DNA from: a virus
IMG/VR virus record: IMGVR_UViG_3300049811_000816
Span: 1 to 24,996 of that record
Direction: 5' to 3' (one strand)
Length of the DNA: 24,996 nt
Positions 2,219 to 20,410 of this stretch are shown here, in pieces (position 1 is the stretch's first letter; every line of letters starts with the position of its first letter). The position numbers and the translations under genes were made by a program. The notes under the pieces were generated by a model. The model saw only the letters and a program-made list of their open reading frames with translations. It made no database searches and was not told the origin of the DNA.

Positions 2219-2363
2219 CTAAACCTATGCTGGGGGGCGAGGCCCGACGCTTTCCCAGTGACACCGCCGAAACCACCCGTTTCGTTTCGCTTTGAGCGGG
2301 ACCCCAAGGAAACATGGCCTGACGGCCCCGCGACACCCGGCTGAACCGAAACGGGGATCGGAC

Positions 2364-2441
2364 CCCATTTCGCTTTCGCGGACCTCCGGTTCGTTTCGGC
2401 CGCCACCCGTTTCGCTGACGCGGACCTGCGGTTCGCTTCGG
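2364..2441. repeat. imperfect tandem repeat, two 36-bp units
   Basis: Unit 1 (2364-2399) and unit 2 (2406-2441) are in direct orientation with a 42-bp period and differ at 5 of 36 positions. Both contain TTTCGCT, CGCGGACCT and CGGTTCG. A related fragment, ACCCGTTTCG followed by GAGCGGGACC, occurs at about 2275-2302. The array ends 21 bp before the methyltransferase ATG. Binding sites for a regulator, possibly the ParB-like protein itself, are an inference. Confidence 0.55.
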
Positions 2442-2462
2442 GATGCAAACCAGGATCCCCCG

Positions 2463-3749
2463 ATGGATGTCGTCGACCTGCCGCTCGGGCAGATCATTCC
2501 CTATGCGCGCAACCCGCGGCGCAACGAGAAGGCGGTGGCGACCGTCGCCGCCTCGATCGCCGAGTTCGGCTGGCGACAGCCGATCGTGGTCGACGAGGCC
2601 ATGGTCGTGCTGGCTGGGCACACGCGGCTTCTGGCGGCGCGGCAGCTCGGGCTCGTGACCGTGCCCGTGCACGTTGCGCGGGGGCTGACCGATGCGCAAG
2701 CGCGCGCCTTCCGGATCATGGACAACCGCTCGAGCGAGAACGCCGAGTGGGACAACGAGCTGCTCGGCCTCGAGCTTGGCGATCTGCTCGAGGCGGATTT
2801 TGATCTCGGCCTGACCGGGTTCACCGACGAGGAACTGGATGCCCTGATGAACGGGCTCAAGGACGGTGCGGTCGGGGCGCAGGACGGTGAGGATGACGTT
2901 CCCACGACGCCGGAGGACCCGGTCACCCGGCCGGGGGATCTCTGGGTGCTGGGCAATCACCGGCTGCTCTGCGGCGACAGCACGGTGGCCACCGACGTCG
3001 AACGGTTGCTTGGGACGGTGAAGCCGCTCCTGATGGTTACGGATCCGCCCTACGGGGTGGAGTACGATCCCGGCTGGCGGAACCAGGCTGGCGCGGCGAA
3101 GACCCGGCGCACCGGCAAGGTGCTGAACGACGATCGTGCCGACTGGCGCGAGGCCTGGGCGCTGTTCCCGGGTGACGTGGCTTACGTCTGGCACGGGGCG
3201 CTGCACGCAGCGACGGTGGCTGAGAGCCTCGAAGCGGCAGGCTTCGCTGCGCGCTCGCAGATCATCTGGGCCAAGGATCGGCTGGTCCTGAGCCGCGGCG
3301 ATTACCACTGGCAGCATGAGCCCTGCTGGTACGCGGTGAAGAAGACCGGCAAGGGCCACTGGGCGGGCGATCGCAAGCAGACGACGCTCTGGCAGATCGC
3401 GAACCGGGACCAGGATGCCGACACGGTGCACGGGACGCAGAAGCCTGTGGAGTGCATGCGGCGGCCTATCCTAAACAACTCGAGCCCGGGGCAGGCGATC
3501 TACGAGCCCTTCATGGGGTCTGGCACCACGCTGATCGCGGCGGAGACCACGGGGAGGGTCTGCCTCGGGATCGAGCTGAACCCGGCCTATGTCGATGTCG
3601 CGGTCGAGCGGTGGCAGCGGTTCACCGGGCAGGAGGCGGTACTCGATGGGGACGGGCGTAGCTTCGACGATGTGAAGACAGTACGGGGGCGGCCCGATCA
3701 GTCGGACGCCGGTGCCGGCCTCGCGGCATCGGCCTCGTCGGCGGCGTAG
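2463..3749 (+). CDS. ParB-like nuclease domain fused to beta-class DNA methyltransferase
   Basis: This 428-aa protein has two parts. Residues 1-100 are a ParB/Srx-type domain with GHTRLLAARQLG (52-63). Residues about 160-395 are an amino-methyltransferase with TDPPYGVEY (193-201) and, after it, the SAM-binding motif FMGSGTTLIAAE (350-361). The order DPPY then FxGxG marks the beta class, which makes N6-methyladenine or N4-methylcytosine. Such fusions are common in prophages and usually have no partner restriction enzyme; they are thought to protect or mark phage DNA. The ATG at 2463 is chosen because AGGA lies 8-9 nt upstream and the ParB domain starts at once. The open frame back to 2292 is only the repeat region. 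The last 52 bp overlap the antisense CIA30 gene. Confidence 0.88.
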   Translation: MDVVDLPLGQIIPYARNPRRNEKAVATVAASIAEFGWRQPIVVDEAMVVLAGHTRLLAARQLGLVTVPVHVARGLTDAQARAFRIMDNRSSENAEWDNELLGLELGDLLEADFDLGLTGFTDEELDALMNGLKDGAVGAQDGEDDVPTTPEDPVTRPGDLWVLGNHRLLCGDSTVATDVERLLGTVKPLLMVTDPPYGVEYDPGWRNQAGAAKTRRTGKVLNDDRADWREAWALFPGDVAYVWHGALHAATVAESLEAAGFAARSQIIWAKDRLVLSRGDYHWQHEPCWYAVKKTGKGHWAGDRKQTTLWQIANRDQDADTVHGTQKPVECMRRPILNNSSPGQAIYEPFMGSGTTLIAAETTGRVCLGIELNPAYVDVAVERWQRFTGQEAVLDGDGRSFDDVKTVRGRPDQSDAGAGLAASASSAA

Positions 3750-4300
3750 AACCGGATGTCGGCGATCGCGATGTCGGCCTCGAACTCCCGACCGATGGCC
3801 ACGATGCAGATCCGGCGGAGCCGCGCAAGGTTCAGCGGCCGCTCGGTGCGGTGCGGGATGAACCCGTAAAACGGCAGCCTGACGCTCGTCCATGTCGCGG
3901 GCGCCCGGAAGCTCTGACGGTAGGACTCCCACGGCCGCCGGATGTCGGAGGTGCGCAGGTGGAGGTTGTAGACCTGTTCGTTGCCGAACACCTCGAGACG
4001 GATCCCGGTCCAGCGGCGCGCATCAACTTCGCTGCCCGCGTCGCCGAGATCGACCGCGACCTGCAGGAACCCACCGTTGTTCTCAAGGCTCACGCCACCA
4101 GTCATGCGGATGGCCTCGCGGCCGGCGACGATCTCGCGCGTCATGCGTCCCGTCGATGCGCCGCCCATCACGCGATCGGAGATGAGGGCCCACCCGTTGC
4201 CGGTGACGGCGAGCGGCGGGTCGAACCGCAGGTCGTCGATGATCTCGGGCGCGTCAGATTCGGTGAGGCGTTTGTCTTCCATGAGGGGAGAGTTAGGCAT
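3698..4300 (-). CDS. CIA30 family protein (complex I intermediate-associated protein 30 domain)
   Basis: This 200-aa protein shows the diagnostic CIA30 pattern: W38, then DRVMGGAS (42-49) and GGVSLENNGGF (68-78), followed by beta-rich sequence ending in IADIRFY. In eukaryotes the family assists respiratory complex I assembly. Bacterial members form a jelly-roll, galactose-binding-like fold of largely unknown role. It is antisense to the phage genes, overlaps the methyltransferase 3' end by 52 bp, and its longest start overlaps the start of the divergent DUF7220 gene within GCATGC. A second in-frame ATG at 4282 would avoid that clash; neither start has a good ribosome site. It is a non-structural cargo gene, and its task in a prophage is unknown. 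Confidence 0.85.
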   Translation of the reverse strand: MPNSPLMEDKRLTESDAPEIIDDLRFDPPLAVTGNGWALISDRVMGGASTGRMTREIVAGREAIRMTGGVSLENNGGFLQVAVDLGDAGSEVDARRWTGIRLEVFGNEQVYNLHLRTSDIRRPWESYRQSFRAPATWTSVRLPFYGFIPHRTERPLNLARLRRICIVAIGREFEADIAIADIRFYAADEADAARPAPASD

Positions 4301-5693: not shown

Positions 5694-6263
5694 GTGTCAT
5701 CGTCGGCGCAGCCGATCGGGGTCATCGCGAAGCTGCTCGACCTGTCGGAGCGGCGGGTGCAGCAGCTGAGCCGGGAGGGTGTGATCCCCAAGGCGACGCG
5801 GGGGCAGTACGACCTGATCGGGTCGGTGCGCGGCTATGTGCGGTACCTCCGCGATCAGGCCGCCAAGGCACAGGCCGGCGCGCCCGACTACGCATCGGAA
5901 CGCGCGCGGTTAATCAGGGCACGGGCCGATCTCGCGGAGATCGAGGCCGACGAGAAGCGCCGCAGCGTCCTCGCGGCCGAGGACGTGGAGGAGGCCTGGA
6001 TCGCCGTGCTCGCGCTTCTGCGGACGCGGATATTGGCGCTGCCGGACCGGCTCGCCCCGATCGTCCACCTACAGACCACGGTCGCTGACACCCGGAGCCT
6101 GATCCGCGCCGCCATCCGCGAGGTGCTCGACGATCTCGCGGAGACCCATGTCGCGCCAGCCCCAGAGCCCGAGCCTGACCCTGAGGGGGACCCTGATCCT
6201 CAGGCAGACGGTGAGGCGGGCGCTCTCGGTGCTGCGGCCGCCGCCGGAGCTGACGATCAGTGA
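5694..6263 (+). CDS. terminase small subunit, Nu1-like
   Basis: This 189-aa protein (lambda Nu1 is 181 aa) is expected to bind the packaging site and recruit the large terminase. The first about 50 residues hold the winged-helix pattern IGVIAKLLDLSERRVQQLSR then GVIPKATRGQYDL, typical of the Nu1 DNA-binding domain. A charged helical middle (ASERARLIRARADLAEIE) is the usual dimer or interaction region. The tail is Pro/Asp/Glu-rich. The start is a GTG with AGAGGA 7 nt upstream. The last 116 bp overlap the start of the large-subunit gene in another frame, an unusually long overlap even for Nu1/A pairs. It opens the lambda-order structural module. Confidence 0.88.
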   Translation: MSSSAQPIGVIAKLLDLSERRVQQLSREGVIPKATRGQYDLIGSVRGYVRYLRDQAAKAQAGAPDYASERARLIRARADLAEIEADEKRRSVLAAEDVEEAWIAVLALLRTRILALPDRLAPIVHLQTTVADTRSLIRAAIREVLDDLAETHVAPAPEPEPDPEGDPDPQADGEAGALGAAAAAGADDQ

Positions 6264-6720
6264 CTGGGCGGACCGGAACCGACGACTGAGCTCGGAGGCA
6301 AGTGCGGAGCCCGGCCAGTGGCGCACCTCCCGCGCGGAATACCAGCGCGGGATCATGGAAGCGATTTCCGACCCGGGAACGGAGACCGTGGTCATCATGT
6401 CCTCGGCACAGGTCGGCAAGGCGCTAGCGCTGGAAACGCCGATCGCAACGCCGACGGGCTGGACGACGATGGGCGCGATCCGGGTCGGAGATGTCATCTT
6501 CGACGAGACCGGCGCGCCATGCACGGTGACCGCGGCCACGGATGTGATGCACGACCGGCGCTGCTACCGCGTCCGGTTTTCGGACGGCAGTTCGATCATC
6601 GCCGATGCCGATCATCTTTGGGCGGTCGAGTCCGACACGCCGGTCGGCGTGCAGGACGCAATGAGGGACCTCTTCCATGATGATCCATCGGGGGGTCCTG
6701 ACCACGAGGGAGATCGCTGA
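6148..6720 (+). CDS. terminase large subunit (GpA family), N-extein plus N-terminal intein part
   Basis: This 190-residue frame encodes the first 91 residues of a GpA-type large terminase, including ISDWADRNRRLSSEASAEPG and the Walker A loop up to SSAQVGK. It then enters an intein at base 6421 (ALALETPIATPTGWTTMG). The frame continues through intein block B (ADADHLW) and ends at a stop at 6718-6720 after sequence that no longer resembles an intein. The ATG has GGAG 6 nt upstream and overlaps the Nu1 gene by 116 bp; a GTG at 6211 is an alternative. The correct continuation (VLTTREIAE) lies in the +1 frame after a G6 run at 6690-6695. See the overlapping gene starting at 6677. Confidence 0.88.
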   Translation: MSRQPQSPSLTLRGTLILRQTVRRALSVLRPPPELTISDWADRNRRLSSEASAEPGQWRTSRAEYQRGIMEAISDPGTETVVIMSSAQVGKALALETPIATPTGWTTMGAIRVGDVIFDETGAPCTVTAATDVMHDRRCYRVRFSDGSSIIADADHLWAVESDTPVGVQDAMRDLFHDDPSGGPDHEGDR

Positions 6721-7654
6721 GACAGCACAACGGGTCGGCCCGAGAAGACGAAACCGCTATGCCATCCCGGTCGCTGGCGCGCTTCAACTGCCAGATGTGA
6801 ACCTGCTAATTCCGCCGTATGTGCTCGGGATCTGGCTTGGCGACGGGCACAGCTATGGCTCGCAGATTACCTGCCATCGGGACGATCTGGAGATTGCCGA
6901 TCACCTGCGGTCCTGCGGCATGGCGGTTGAAGTCAGCGCCAAGGACAAGCGGCGCCCAGATGTTCTGACGCTGAAACCGACCGTGCCCTGGCCCGCTCAC
7001 GTCTGTCGCCGGGGCCACGACCAGAACCGCCTGGGCCGGCACGCAAATGGCAACTGCGCGGAATGCGGGCGCCAATTCTCTCTACGCTGGAAGAACGGAT
7101 CGCCCGTCGATCCGGTACTGGAAGAGGTAAAGCCGTTCAGTCAGCGGCTGAGGGATCTGGGACTCGTCAAGGACCGCAAGACGCTCGGGACGGGAAAGCA
7201 CATCCCCGCCGTCTATCTCCGCGCTTCAAGGGATCAGCGGCTCGCATTGCTGCAGGGGCTGATGGATACGGACGGCTATGTCGGCTCCAACGGGCGCTGC
7301 GAGTTCATCACGATCTACCCACGCCTGGCCGATGGCTTCGGCGAACTTCTGGCTTCGCTCGGGGTCAAGTTCACGTCGGCTTCGAAGCAGCCGAGCCTGG
7401 TCGTCGACGGGGAGCGCAGGCTGGGCAAGCCGGCGACGCGCTTCTCGTTCCTGGTCTATGACGACGTACCGGTATTCCGTCTGGCCCGCAAACGCGGACG
7501 ACAGGTGTCGCGGGAGGGGCGGCGGACGACGGAGACAGAGCGTCGGCGCATCGTTGCGGTCGAGCCGGTCGACAGCGTGCCGGTCCGATGCATTCAGGTC
7601 GACAGCCCGAACCAGCTCTATCTGGCGGGGCGGGCAATGATCCCGACCCACAAC
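6421..7654 (+). other. class 3-like intein with LAGLIDADG homing endonuclease
   Basis: The intein interrupts the terminase Walker A loop between K and T (SAQVGK / TEILNN). With one nucleotide removed it would be 411 residues. Position 1 is Ala, not Cys or Ser. Block B is ADADHLW (His65, Trp67), block F is PVRCIQVDSPNQLYL with Cys at 7589-7591, and block G is IPTHN with Thr at 7646-7648, followed by extein Thr. Ala1 together with W in block B, C in block F and T in block G is the class 3 signature, in which the block F Cys is the first nucleophile. Two LAGLIDADG helices are seen, VLGIWLGDG (near 6821) and LLQGLMDTDG (7247-7276). The reading frame is broken between 6665 and 6720. Confidence 0.9.
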
Positions 7655-9340
7655 ACCGAGATCCTGAACAACGCGGTGGGCTACCACATCGACCAGGACC
7701 CGGCGCCGATCATGGTGGTGATGCCGACCGAGCGCGACGCTGAGACCTGGTCGAAGGACCGCTTCTCGCCGATGGCGCGGGACACGCCGTGCCTTGTGGG
7801 CAGGATTGCGGATCCGAGGTCGCGGGATGGCACCAACAAAATCCTGCACAAGCGCTTTCCGGGCGGGCACCTGACGATCGTGGGCGCGAATGCGCCCTCG
7901 GGACTCGCGAGCCGCCCGATCCGGCTCCTCATGTGCGACGAGGTCGATCGCTATCCGTTCAGCGCGGGCGCCGAGGGGGATCCGGTCAACCTCGCGAAGA
8001 AGCGAACGGTCACCTTCTGGAACCGCAAGATCGTGCTGGTCTCGACGCCCACCAACAAGGGCGCGAGCCGGATCGAGACGGCCTTCGAGGAAAGCGACCA
8101 GAGGCAGTTCTGGGTGCCGTGTCCGGACTGCGGGACCGAGCAGGTCCTGACCTGGCCGCGGGTGCGCTGGGACAAAGGACCTGACGGCGCGCACCTGCCG
8201 GATACGGCGCTGTATAATTGCATCGAGTGCGATGCGGCATGGCGCGACGAGACCCGCTGGGCGGCGGTCTCGAAGGGGCGCTGGATCGCGAACCGGCCTT
8301 TTGCGCGGACGGCGGGGTTCCATCTCAACGAGATCTACTCGCCCTGGGTGCGGCTCGAGGCGATGGTGCGCAGCTTCCTCTCGGCCCGGGCCGGGGGCGA
8401 CGAAGCGATGAAGACCTTCGTGAACACCGCGCTCGGCGAGACCTGGATGGAGAGCGGCGAGGCGCCGGACTGGCAGCGGCTGGCGGACCGGCGCGAGGCG
8501 TGGCCAGCGGGGACGGTGCCCGAGCGCGGCTTGTTCCTGACCGCGGGCGCGGACGTCCAGAAGGACCGGATCGAGGTCGATGTCTGGGCCTGGGGCAGGG
8601 GGCTCGAAAGCTGGCTCGTCGAGCATGTGGTGCTGGAAGGTGGACCCGGCGATCCGGCCTGCTGGCAGAAGCTCAGCGACCTTTTGGGGCGGGTCTGGCA
8701 ACACGCCAGTGGCCAGCACCTGACGATCGCGCGGCTCGCGATCGACACCGGCTACGAGACCAGCGCCGTCTACGGCTGGGCTCGTGCAGTGGGCTTCGCG
8801 CAGGTGGCGCCGGTGAAGGGCCTTGAGGGCTTCAACCGGTCGAGCCCGGTGACCGGGCCGACCTATGTCGATGCCACGATCGGAGGCAAGCGGCTCCGGC
8901 GCGGGGCGCGGCTCTGGACGGTGGCGACATCGACCTTCAAGACTGAGACCTATCGGTTCCTGCGGCTCCCTGCGCAGGAGGCCAGCCCGGCAGATGCGGA
9001 AGCACGGCCCCCAGGCTTCATGCATCTGCCGGGCTGGATCGACGCCGAGTGGCTGAAGCAGCTGACCGCGGAGCAGCTAGTGACGGTGCGCACGAAGCGC
9101 GGCTTCGCCCGGCTGGAATGGCAGAAGCTGCGCGAGCGCAACGAGGCGCTGGACTGCCGGGTCTATGCGCGGGCGGCAGCCTGGATCGTCGGTGCCGACC
9201 GCTGGTCCGAGGCGAGGTGGCAGGAACTGGAGCGTCCGCTGGCGGTGGGGCAGGGCAGATCGGCCGGGGAAGCGGCGGCACGGGCTTTGCCGCGCCCGTC
9301 CGCGCGGCGGCGGACGGTGCGGTCGAGCTACATGGGGTGA
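6677..9340 (+). CDS. C-terminal intein part with homing endonuclease, plus terminase large subunit C-extein
   Basis: This frame has 887 codons. Residues 1-326 are the intein endonuclease and splicing blocks F and G. Residues 327-887 are the GpA C-extein, giving a 652-aa terminase after splicing (lambda A is 641 aa). The extein shows Walker B LLMCDEVDRYP, the motor motif VLVSTPTN, a zinc pair CPDCGTE...CIECDAAW, and the nuclease start LTAGADVQKDRIEVDVWAWG. It cuts concatemers and pumps DNA into the prohead. The ATG at 6677 has GAGG 10 nt upstream, so independent initiation is conceivable. The upstream frame closes at a TGA at 6662-6664. Without frameshifting, slippage, trans-splicing or sequence correction, an intact terminase cannot be made. 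Confidence 0.88.
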   Translation: MMIHRGVLTTREIAETAQRVGPRRRNRYAIPVAGALQLPDVNLLIPPYVLGIWLGDGHSYGSQITCHRDDLEIADHLRSCGMAVEVSAKDKRRPDVLTLKPTVPWPAHVCRRGHDQNRLGRHANGNCAECGRQFSLRWKNGSPVDPVLEEVKPFSQRLRDLGLVKDRKTLGTGKHIPAVYLRASRDQRLALLQGLMDTDGYVGSNGRCEFITIYPRLADGFGELLASLGVKFTSASKQPSLVVDGERRLGKPATRFSFLVYDDVPVFRLARKRGRQVSREGRRTTETERRRIVAVEPVDSVPVRCIQVDSPNQLYLAGRAMIPTHNTEILNNAVGYHIDQDPAPIMVVMPTERDAETWSKDRFSPMARDTPCLVGRIADPRSRDGTNKILHKRFPGGHLTIVGANAPSGLASRPIRLLMCDEVDRYPFSAGAEGDPVNLAKKRTVTFWNRKIVLVSTPTNKGASRIETAFEESDQRQFWVPCPDCGTEQVLTWPRVRWDKGPDGAHLPDTALYNCIECDAAWRDETRWAAVSKGRWIANRPFARTAGFHLNEIYSPWVRLEAMVRSFLSARAGGDEAMKTFVNTALGETWMESGEAPDWQRLADRREAWPAGTVPERGLFLTAGADVQKDRIEVDVWAWGRGLESWLVEHVVLEGGPGDPACWQKLSDLLGRVWQHASGQHLTIARLAIDTGYETSAVYGWARAVGFAQVAPVKGLEGFNRSSPVTGPTYVDATIGGKRLRRGARLWTVATSTFKTETYRFLRLPAQEASPADAEARPPGFMHLPGWIDAEWLKQLTAEQLVTVRTKRGFARLEWQKLRERNEALDCRVYARAAAWIVGADRWSEARWQELERPLAVGQGRSAGEAAARALPRPSARRRTVRSSYMG
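6690..6695 (+). other. G6 homopolymer at the intein frame break
   Basis: Removing one G would join the upstream frame (DDPSG) directly to VLTTREIAE, a normal-looking intein continuation. The G6 run is therefore the simplest site of the 1-nt indel. It may be a real mutation, a slippage site or a sequencing error. Confidence 0.6.
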
Positions 9341-9431: not shown

Positions 9432-10049
9432 GTGTCCAGAGAACCGGAGCTGTTCACGCTTCCCGCTCGTCGCGGGCGTGCCGTCCGCCTCGGAAAGGGG
9501 GAGGCAATCCAGATCATCAACACGCACGGGTCCCAGGTTGTGGACACGTGGGTGTTCAACGCCGAGGATCTGACGGAATTCCTGTCCAACGAGCATATGC
9601 GCCCGACCCTGGGCAAGCTGTGGCCCGGCAGGGGAGATGCGCTGATCACCAACCGGCGCCGGGCGATCATGATCATGGAAGAGGATACCTCGCCGGGACG
9701 ACACGACACCCTGATCGCGGCCTGCGACGACTACCGCTACGGCCTCCTCGGCTGCACCGAGTATCATGACAACTGCACGGACAACCTTCACGCCGCCATG
9801 CGACGGATCGGGCTGGAGGCGCCAGAATGCCCGAGTCCGCTGAATCTGTGGATGAACATCCCGGTCGCAGCCGACGGCTCAACAGGCTGGGGTGAGCCTC
9901 TGTCCAAGCCGGGAGACCATGTCATCCTGCGGGCTCAGATGGACTGCGTCGTCGCCATGTCGGCCTGCCCGCAGGACATGCTGCCGATCAACGGCGCGGC
10001 CTGTCAGCCGACCGAGGCTCACTACCGGCTCCTCGAGCGCGGTACGTGA
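9432..10049 (+). CDS. DUF1989 / urea carboxylase-associated family protein
   Basis: This 205-aa protein has the DUF1989 pattern: INTHGSQVVDTWVFN near the N-terminus, TPGR-like TSPGRHDTLIAACDD (86-100), and GCTEYHDNCTDNLHAAM (107-123) with Cys/Glu/His positions suited to a metal. Its closing motif is ACPQDMLPINGA. Family members are encoded beside urea amidolyase and guanidine carboxylase, and some act as a metal-dependent carboxyguanidine deiminase. Here no carboxylase gene is near. The start is a GTG with AAGGAGAGAGGGA just before it; the frame upstream of that is a shadow of the terminase. It follows the terminase by 91 bp on the same strand and looks like metabolic cargo. Substrate is uncertain. 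Confidence 0.85.
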   Translation: MSREPELFTLPARRGRAVRLGKGEAIQIINTHGSQVVDTWVFNAEDLTEFLSNEHMRPTLGKLWPGRGDALITNRRRAIMIMEEDTSPGRHDTLIAACDDYRYGLLGCTEYHDNCTDNLHAAMRRIGLEAPECPSPLNLWMNIPVAADGSTGWGEPLSKPGDHVILRAQMDCVVAMSACPQDMLPINGAACQPTEAHYRLLERGT

Positions 10050-10074: not shown

Positions 10075-10971
10075 CTAGTTCAGGCAGCATTTCTTGAACT
10101 TCTTGCCACTCCCGCAGGGACAGGGATCGTTGCGCCCGACCTTCGGCGTGTCATGCTCGAAGGGTGCACCGAAGAAGTCGTGCACAGACTCCGGGCGCTC
10201 TCCTGCGGCCGCACGGGCCTTCAGGTACTCCTCGGAGAAGCAGTACCAGCCCGAGAGATCGTCAATGGCGCTCTCGATGAGGCGGCTGTTGCGGCTGCGA
10301 TGGTACCAGGACGCTTCGCTGCCTGCGACGGCTTCACGGAGTTGCTCCTGGAAGAAGGCGAAATCTGCCTCGTCGGGCGAGATCCACTCCTCTGCGAAGG
10401 CCTGCTGCACCTGGGGCTCCAGATGCTCCAGTCCGAGGTCGGCAACGGCGAATGCCCAGGAGCCCCAGAGGGTTTCGGGCTTGTCCAAGTCGACGGTGAA
10501 GAACTGCTCGAGATAGTCGGTGACCTCTGGCCGGATTTCCGGCTGGGTTCGCGCAATGAGGACGAGCGCATCGATCATCTGGCAGCGAACATACTCGTCG
10601 GCGGCCGGGTCCTCGATCAGCCCGAAGATTGGCTGAAGGTCGCCATCGCAGACCCCAGCAACGACGCGCGCGGTGCTCTCCGTCAGCGCATCGCCGAGTA
10701 GAAGTTCGAGGAATGCGGGATCGTGGTGCAATAGGGCGGTGAGCGGATGGTAGGCGCGGGTGTCGCGCCATTCGCCGAGCAGGAAGAAGGCGAAGAGAAA
10801 GGCTGACAGGTCATCCTCGGCCACGCTGTCCGGGGTCGCGCGCCGGAGACGGTGGATCAGGTCGAGGAAGACAGGAATCATGTCTTCGCGGTGCTCGCCC
10901 GCCGCGACCATGGCGTCGCGGGGGAGCCCAACCGCTTCGGCGAGGGCAGTGAAGATCTGCTCGGGGGTCAC
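10075..10971 (-). CDS. DUF1186 domain protein with C-terminal SEC-C zinc motif
   Basis: This 298-aa protein is antisense to the virion genes. Residues 1-230 form an Ala/Leu/Glu-rich helical-repeat-like region matching DUF1186 ([22 protein letters not shown] is within it). The C-terminus is a SEC-C motif, [19 protein letters not shown], which binds zinc and in SecA contacts SecB and ribosomes. The start is a GTG with GGAG about 9 nt upstream. It is convergent with the DUF1989 gene (25 bp between stops) and divergent from the W-like gene. No enzymatic motif is visible. It is a non-structural insert between terminase and head-joining genes, and its function is unknown beyond likely protein or metal binding. 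Confidence 0.85.
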
Positions 10972-17561: not shown

Positions 17562-17981
17562 ATGCCCACCCTTCGCGAAACCATCCTTGCCGCACTGCAC
17601 GCGCGGCTTTTGGCACTGCCCGCCACCGCTCTGCGCGGCGAGGTCCTGCCCGAGCGCGTGCCGGCCGGAGGCCTCGTAATCCTGCGCGACGGCGAGCCAG
17701 GCGACCCGGAAGTCTCGCTGTCGCCGCTCGCCTACCACTACCAGCACCGCGCCGAGATCGAGGCGGTCGTGCAGGGCGCCACCCGTGACGCCGACTTCGA
17801 CAGGCTCTGCGCCAGTATCGGCGCGGGGCTTGCCGGCGACCGGACGCTGGGCGGGCTCTGCGAATGGGTCGAGGCTGAGGCGCCGCGCCCAGTGGACCTG
17901 CCTGTCGAAGGCGCGGCCAGCCTGAAGGCGGCCGTGATCCCGGTCGTCCTGCACTACACCACGGCCGACCCGCTCGGCTGA
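17562..17981 (+). CDS. tail terminator-like protein, gpU position
   Basis: This 139-aa protein (lambda U is 131 aa) begins MPTLRETILAALHARLLALP and has the alpha/beta layout of tail terminators: a first helix, the strand GGLVILRDG, then HYQHRAEIEAVVQ and the C-terminal strand AVIPVVLHYTTADPLG. Tail terminators cap the finished tail tube and fix its length. Relatives in alphaproteobacterial prophages are often mislabelled acyl-CoA transferase. The ribosome site is weak. Its last 28 bp overlap the convergent bactofilin gene. Confidence 0.78.
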   Translation: MPTLRETILAALHARLLALPATALRGEVLPERVPAGGLVILRDGEPGDPEVSLSPLAYHYQHRAEIEAVVQGATRDADFDRLCASIGAGLAGDRTLGGLCEWVEAEAPRPVDLPVEGAASLKAAVIPVVLHYTTADPLG

Positions 17982-18355
17982 GTGAGCGCCAGTGGTTCTG
18001 CAGACCGGCCTGCGTGCACCTGGCCCTCCAGTTCCGCGCCACTGTCGATGCTGAGCGTCTCGCAGGTGATCTCGCCGGTGACCCGCGCACTGGCATGCAG
18101 CTTGACAGTGCCGCCCTTTAGCAGGCCCTTGAACCGCCCCTTGATCGCGATGCTGGCCGCTTGAAGCTCACCCTCGACCTCGCCGGTATCCTCTATGATG
18201 ATTGTAGACGCTTCCACGCGCCCCTTGACGTGACCGGGCAACTCGACCGTGCCGGGGAACTGCAGCTCTCCGGTGACACGCGAGCCGGCTTCAAGATAGG
18301 AGCGCCCCCCGGCGCCGACGCGGCTCGGATCAGTATTCATCAGCCATTGCCTCAT
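17954..18355 (-). CDS. bactofilin family protein
   Basis: This 133-aa protein is a bactofilin by pattern. After a short disordered N-terminus (MNTDPSRVGAGGRSYLEAGS) come repeating beta strands such as VTGELQFPGTVELPGHVKG, IIIEDTGEVEGELQA and ARVTGEITCETLSI, which form the right-handed beta-helix that polymerises into filaments at the membrane. Bactofilins guide cell shape, stalk growth or septation. The start may be ATG 18355 or ATG 18340; neither has a strong ribosome site. It is antisense between the U-like and V-like genes and overlaps the former. A cell-shape gene inside a tail operon is unexpected. Confidence 0.85.
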   Translation of the reverse strand: MRQWLMNTDPSRVGAGGRSYLEAGSRVTGELQFPGTVELPGHVKGRVEASTIIIEDTGEVEGELQAASIAIKGRFKGLLKGGTVKLHASARVTGEITCETLSIDSGAELEGQVHAGRSAEPLALTQPSGSAVV

Positions 18356-20032: not shown

Positions 20033-20410
20033 TCAGGTGACGATCTTCCAGTAGGAGTCCTTCCGGATCACCTTGCCGTCCTCGAACGTGTAGAAGTCGC
20101 AGCCTCTGACGCGGACCTTCTCTCCGGCCGGCGTGGTGCCAGTCAGAAGCCACTTGGACATGCCGGTGTTTCCGCAGGTGAAGTTCTCGATCTCGCCGTA
20201 GTGGACGTCGGGCGTGCTCTCGAACCTCGTCATGAGGCCCCGTCGCACCTCGTCGCGGCCGATATATCGGCTGCCATGCGGTTCCGGGCCGCGGGGAAGA
20301 TCCAGACTGCACTGTTCCGCAAAGAAACCCATGATCGCGTCGATGTCGTGGGCGTTGAACCCGGCGGCCAGCCCGTCGAGTGCTGCCAGTATCCGGTGTT
20401 CCTCTTCCAT
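20033..20410 (-). CDS. NTF2-like / SnoaL-like family protein
   Basis: This 125-aa protein is full length for the SnoaL-like/NTF2 fold: an N-terminal helix EEEHRILAALDGLAAGFNAHD, then DAIMGFFAEQCSLDLPRG, a YIGRDEVRRGLMTRFES loop, and the closing beta strands VRVRGCDFYTFEDGKVIRKD. Members are small cone-shaped proteins that isomerise, hydrolyse or bind hydrophobic ligands; the substrate cannot be read from sequence. A perfect ribosome site, GGAGGA, lies before the ATG, and a promoter-like TATGAT lies 27 nt upstream. It is antisense between the G/T chaperone and the tape measure gene, with its own control region, so expression in the lysogen is likely. Confidence 0.85.
   Translation of the reverse strand: MEEEHRILAALDGLAAGFNAHDIDAIMGFFAEQCSLDLPRGPEPHGSRYIGRDEVRRGLMTRFESTPDVHYGEIENFTCGNTGMSKWLLTGTTPAGEKVRVRGCDFYTFEDGKVIRKDSYWKIVT

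Follow-up and report, generated by a model that had tools for sequence, protein, structure and literature searches.

Organization of the divided terminase gene

The window analyzed here is the whole of a 24,996-bp viral record of IMG/VR, IMGVR_UViG_3300049811_000816. It encodes a GpA-type terminase, matching both the Pfam GpA_ATPase (PF05876) and GpA_nuclease (PF20454) families, which is interrupted by an intein and spread over two overlapping open reading frames (ORFs) offset by +1. ORF1 ends with the TGA at 6718-6720, while the frame of ORF2 is open after the TGA at 6662-6664 and contains an ATGATG from 6677, with GAGG (6663-6666) 10 nt upstream. The joined exteins would make a protein of 652 amino acids (91 + 561). 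These values, together with the ORF limits, the 44-bp overlap and a run of six G residues (G6) at 6690-6695, had been given in a preliminary description of the sequence, and all were re-derived as stated. The features of the locus are as follows.

6148-6720, plus strand: ORF1, terminase N-extein (91 amino acids, ending in SSAQVGK) followed by the N-terminal intein half (IntN; 99 amino acids, blocks A and B, Trp of the catalytic triad); Pfam GpA_ATPase, E = 2e-9
6421-6717, plus strand: IntN fragment, first residue Ala1, without a nucleophile at position 1; matches the class 3 DnaB inteins 6rix and 6bs8 (E about 1e-30)
6677-9340, plus strand: ORF2, C-terminal intein half (IntC; 326 amino acids) with an embedded LAGLIDADG endonuclease, followed by the terminase C-extein (561 amino acids); Pfam remaining GpA_ATPase, GpA_nuclease and LAGLIDADG_3
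6677-7654, plus strand: IntC, with the LAGLIDADG motifs LGIWLGDG and LLQGLMDTDG, then the block F Cys and the block G THN (from the alignment)
7655-9337, plus strand: C-extein, its first residue being the Thr of Walker A, after GK
6677-6720, plus strand: ORF1/ORF2 overlap (44 bp), where N-frame codon constraint gives way to C-frame constraint
6677-6679, plus strand: ORF2 start codon (ATG in 27/28 sequences, TTG in 1/28)
6662-6668, plus strand: putative purine-rich Shine-Dalgarno (SD)-like element of ORF2 (GAGGGA; GGGGGA or GAAGGG in relatives), in all 28 distinct relatives
6665-6699, plus strand: predicted hairpin around the SD-like element and start codon, a suggestive candidate for a translational-coupling element

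The intein is inserted inside the P-loop (Walker A), between GK and T. Intein-free relatives have GK followed directly by T or S, or, in four distant ones, GA followed by T. Since the insertion divides the P-loop itself, neither half should be a working terminase ATPase alone, and packaging should need trans-splicing.

A class 3 intein with a divided catalytic triad

Position 1 of the intein is Ala in all 28 distinct sequences, with neither Cys nor Ser as a nucleophile there. Every complete copy retains the Trp of block B, the Cys of block F, the Thr, His and Asn of block G and the +1 Thr, and the ORF1 motif ALA[LI][DE]T...HLW is found in 28/28 relatives. Across 71 class 3 rows, W67, C390 and T409 are invariant, as are D56, D197, D199, C305, T324, H325 and N326 in the IntC alignment. 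The lack of a position-1 nucleophile, the Trp-Cys-Thr (WCT) triad and the predicted Hedgehog/intein (HINT) fold all identify the element, by its sequence, as a class 3 intein with the canonical triad. The triad is divided, with the Trp on ORF1 and both nucleophiles and the terminal Asn on ORF2 (C/T/H/N).

The two ends of the intein resemble class 3 DnaB inteins of solved structure (E about 1e-30), and its middle resembles PI-SceI; the endonuclease belongs to LAGLIDADG_3, with the motifs LGxWLGDG and LLQGLMDxDG and their invariant D. The fold was predicted with AlphaFold2 on a read-through of both halves aligned with 70 contiguous relatives (mean predicted local distance difference test, pLDDT, 95; predicted template modeling score, pTM, 0.92). 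The linker that contains the break (residues about 71-90) is the part predicted with the least confidence, and a Foldseek search with the model retrieved PI-SceI and the class 3 DnaB inteins 6bs8 and 6rix.

Conservation of the frame break

The intein was searched in public viral contigs and in one genome per species. This survey gave 38 relatives at about 73-85% identity, with the halves in different frames and the same +1 offset in 38/38. In a second survey, loci were sorted according to the distance separating their extein halves: in 54 loci the intein measured exactly 1234 nt, all with the +1 break and none with indels. These 54 include re-fetches of identical contigs and represent 28 distinct intein sequences, which are the sequences counted throughout. 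Comparison of related loci had been proposed in the preliminary description; it confirmed the break, and no member of the split clade has an intact frame. Such regularity far exceeds what chance would produce, and the break is genuine and not a sequencing error.

The split inteins, in a lineage of Rhodobacterales phages, come from metagenomes as well as from sequenced isolates; contigs from named isolates of Rhodobacterales (Seohaeicola, Thalassobius, Thalassovita and Paradonghicola) are among the carriers. In the second survey, the same GpA site was empty in 61 relatives (gap exactly 0; median C-extein identity 92%); it was occupied by a full contiguous intein in 21 cases and by a contiguous mini-intein in one. 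The element appears to be rare, since each of the family-wide genome searches found it in 3/395 genomes. Setting aside a single plasmid match in the 60-80% band, phage and plasmid records contained nothing closely related to the split clade.

In a quick maximum-likelihood tree, the split copies form one clade on one branch (support 100), consistent with one change, and their neighbors are contiguous inteins from Parvibaculum and from viral contigs. The shared break spans a synonymous divergence of about 0.5 and must therefore be old. Distances between inteins covary with those between exteins (r = 0.83), with a few pairs closer in the intein than in the extein; the element has thus been inherited mainly along with its phages. 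Over 24 divergent copies, the ratio of nonsynonymous to synonymous changes (pN/pS) was 0.16 for the N-extein, 0.19 for the IntN blocks, 0.19 for IntC and 0.21 for the C-extein, climbing to 0.47 in the ORF1 tail. These values show purifying selection on all four parts, the exteins as well as the intein halves. As in a split intein, two halves in two reading frames are thus kept by selection.

Several related loci are worth recording in their own right. In Thalassovita autumnalis CECT 5118, two contigs (L081 and L084) each carry a split-intein terminase, and the two terminases differ. The mini-intein at the same GpA site (L076:3342-3836) is contiguous, free of endonuclease and 498 nt long. Outside the split clade, the class 3 inteins comprised 177 contiguous copies, one out-of-frame copy and one with an alternative code. 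The out-of-frame copy (L187:1949-3203) is a lone, unrelated terminase intein that has a +1 break and, ahead of the endonuclease, about 100 additional residues; it could be an independent split or an error. In the last (L216:3859-4881), also from a phage terminase, TGA encodes the block B Trp and another conserved Trp. It was rejected as a stop-interrupted intein, as the TGA codons stand at Trp positions and the intein is contiguous under code 4, which this phage probably uses.

Candidate signals for the initiation of ORF2

The triplet at 6677 is the sole start-like triplet of the C frame kept in all distinct sequences. The single change from ATG to TTG replaces H/D by L in ORF1 but retains a start codon, and just 3/134 wobble positions of the ORF1 frame are invariant. 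The codon periodicity of substitutions switches from the ORF1 frame to the ORF2 frame within the overlap, around the ORF2 start. The SD-like element, about 10 nt upstream of that start, is present in 28/28 sequences. At the end of ORF1, GGAGAT.GC-TGA (6707-6720) is more conserved than ORF2 coding requires, including at its wobble positions.

RNAalifold predicted a hairpin enclosing the SD-like element and the ATG, paired in 96.6% of the cells of a 22-sequence alignment. Only two pairs changed on both sides, a covariation matched by 25/500 shuffles, and the stability (rank 98 of 640 windows) is ordinary for the local GC content. The hairpin, compelling at first sight, is therefore taken as a suggestion only. 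If real, it may couple ORF2 initiation to the passage of ribosomes through ORF1.

Sequencing error, slippage, decay and frameshifting as alternatives

The preliminary description offered four readings of the break: a natural split, a sequencing error, a slippage-dependent terminase and a mutation or dead prophage. Of these, the data point to the natural split. The G6 run, which would be the site of transcriptional slippage or of a homopolymer sequencing error, is indeed present in the window, but it is private to it (1/28 sequences); the relatives share the break yet carry one to three G at this position. Because the break is conserved and the G run is not, error and slippage at the run are excluded for all practical purposes. 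Decay of the intein or of a dead prophage terminase would account for the broken frame of a contiguous ancestor. This is contradicted by a pN/pS near 0.2 throughout, by the 54 loci free of indels, by the retention of the catalytic residues and by the synonymous divergence that the shared break spans; moreover, in two of the seven carrier genomes tested (G004 and G005) the split pair is the sole GpA found. A dead gene is incompatible with the purifying selection that acts on the two halves and with the strict constancy of length, and decay is extremely improbable.

Programmed +1 ribosomal frameshifting in the overlap would yield a single cis-splicing precursor, with ORF1 alone as a frequent by-product. 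The required shift is +1 at every locus, and an SD-like AGGAG lies 5 nt ahead of the TGA that ends ORF1, which recalls the layout of RF2; the wobble positions there are unusually conserved. However, the ORF1 stop is missing in 4/28 sequences, where ORF1 extends by 123 to 159 nt, and the codon preceding it varies (TGC, CGC or AGC), none of these re-pairing after a +1 step; an RF2-type shift at the stop was rejected as the main route on these grounds. Constraint on the C frame begins at least 24 nt ahead of the ORF1 stop, so that this frame must be translated upstream of such a shift. Furthermore, the overlap lacks a conserved slippery site, with no 7-mer between 40 nt upstream of 6695 and 6695 itself kept in 80% of the sequences, and frameshifting leaves the invariant start codon unexplained. 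A search of open-licence papers for split inteins combined with programmed frameshifting returned nothing relevant. Taken together, we regard frameshifting as unlikely. It is also conceivable that both halves are made and assemble without splicing, in which case the intein halves would serve only for docking and the endonuclease for homing. Splicing activity is indeed beyond proof from sequence, but the invariance of every splice-site or catalytic residue (A1, W, C, T, H, N and +1 T) and the division of the P-loop itself make this very unlikely.

Proposed trans-splicing of the terminase

We conclude that the locus probably encodes a naturally split class 3 intein on overlapping ORFs, with the endonuclease kept on the C-half and a terminase assembled by trans-splicing. 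Some observations weigh against this. At the ORF1 stop, the conserved GGAGATTGC-TGA (25/28) looks, on the surface, like a signal for +1 frameshifting. The SD-like element is a modest one, lying about 10 nt before the ATG, and the predicted hairpin would impede initiation unless ORF1 were being translated. In addition, the fold was computed on the joined sequence and not on two chains.

In the proposed mechanism, ORF1 would give a fusion of the terminase N-terminal region to IntN, and ORF2, initiated independently at its own ATG inside ORF1, would give IntC, with a putatively active LAGLIDADG endonuclease, fused to the rest of the terminase. IntN and IntC would associate into a single HINT domain. 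The block F cysteine would then attack the N-splice junction, the +1 Thr would receive the N-extein, and cyclization of the Asn would free the intein and leave the 652-amino-acid terminase. Packaging of the phage DNA thus probably depends on protein splicing to unite the two separately made halves. It is also likely, in our judgment, that this is a functional and lineage-stable system in which one frame change and a start codon in the flexible linker made trans-splicing obligatory for genome packaging, possibly with coupling through the hairpin.

Comparison with known class 3 and split inteins

In a survey of the protein database, Hoffmann et al. counted 1701 class 3 inteins, all of them cis-acting, and went on to describe a single naturally split one, AceL NrdHF, from a metagenome (PMC7891396). 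In AceL NrdHF the triad is Met-Cys-Thr (MCT), IntC is 48 amino acids long, and an independent GIY-YIG gene stands between the two halves (PMC7891396). It shares with the present clade a natural split of a class 3 intein, a probable phage origin, Ala at position 1, an IntN of about 98 amino acids and a break at the usual site of endonuclease insertion. It differs in lying in a ribonucleotide reductase and not a terminase, in its MCT triad as opposed to the canonical WCT, and in its IntC without endonuclease, whereas here IntC retains a LAGLIDADG domain. Unlike AceL NrdHF, the present clade is a conserved lineage with overlapping ORFs and no intervening gene. The layout is not that of a fractured gene, where a free-standing endonuclease gene stands between the halves. 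AceL TerL (PMC7891396) is another natural split intein, likened to the present one by name alone.

The contiguous class 3 LAGLIDADG inteins of phage terminases and helicases (L090, L160, L161 and L031; DnaB of 6BS8 and 6RIX) have the same blocks and the same WCT triad. The full-length ones share the endonuclease family, and the nearest lie at the same GpA site; unlike the split clade, all have a single reading frame and splice in cis. Finally, Ariagno et al. artificially split a class 3 intein, M. smegmatis DnaBi1, at the equivalent loop and obtained trans-splicing (PMC10559147). As here, the split is near the endonuclease loop and both nucleophiles are on the C-fragment, but that split is engineered and lacks an endonuclease. 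That an artificial class 3 split near the same place trans-splices supports the trans-splicing reading of the natural one.

Judged from the open-licence literature, natural splitting of class 3 inteins was already known, and what sets the present clade apart is the triad, the host protein, the retained LAGLIDADG endonuclease, the overlapping ORFs and the conserved lineage. The clade would be the second natural case, better populated and found in cultured bacteria. It suggests a very simple route from a cis-acting to a split intein, in which the linker acquires a frame change and a start codon, and indicates that a split intein can retain its homing endonuclease. As gene callers would label such loci frameshifted pseudogenes, others may have gone unnoticed. 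Canonical class 3 split pairs are wanted for protein ligation because both nucleophiles are on one fragment.

Other genes of the window

The gene directly upstream of ORF1 (5694-6263, plus strand) has a weak N-terminal helix-turn-helix match (HTH_17) and, by its position, is probably the small terminase. The phage structural genes are interspersed with host-like genes, of which four are on the opposite strand:

3698-4300, minus strand: CIA30
9432-10049, plus strand: DUF1989
10075-10971, minus strand: DUF1186 with SEC-C
17954-18355, minus strand: bactofilin
20033-20410, minus strand: SnoaL

In addition, an N6/N4 DNA methylase fused to a ParB-like domain is encoded at 2292-3749.
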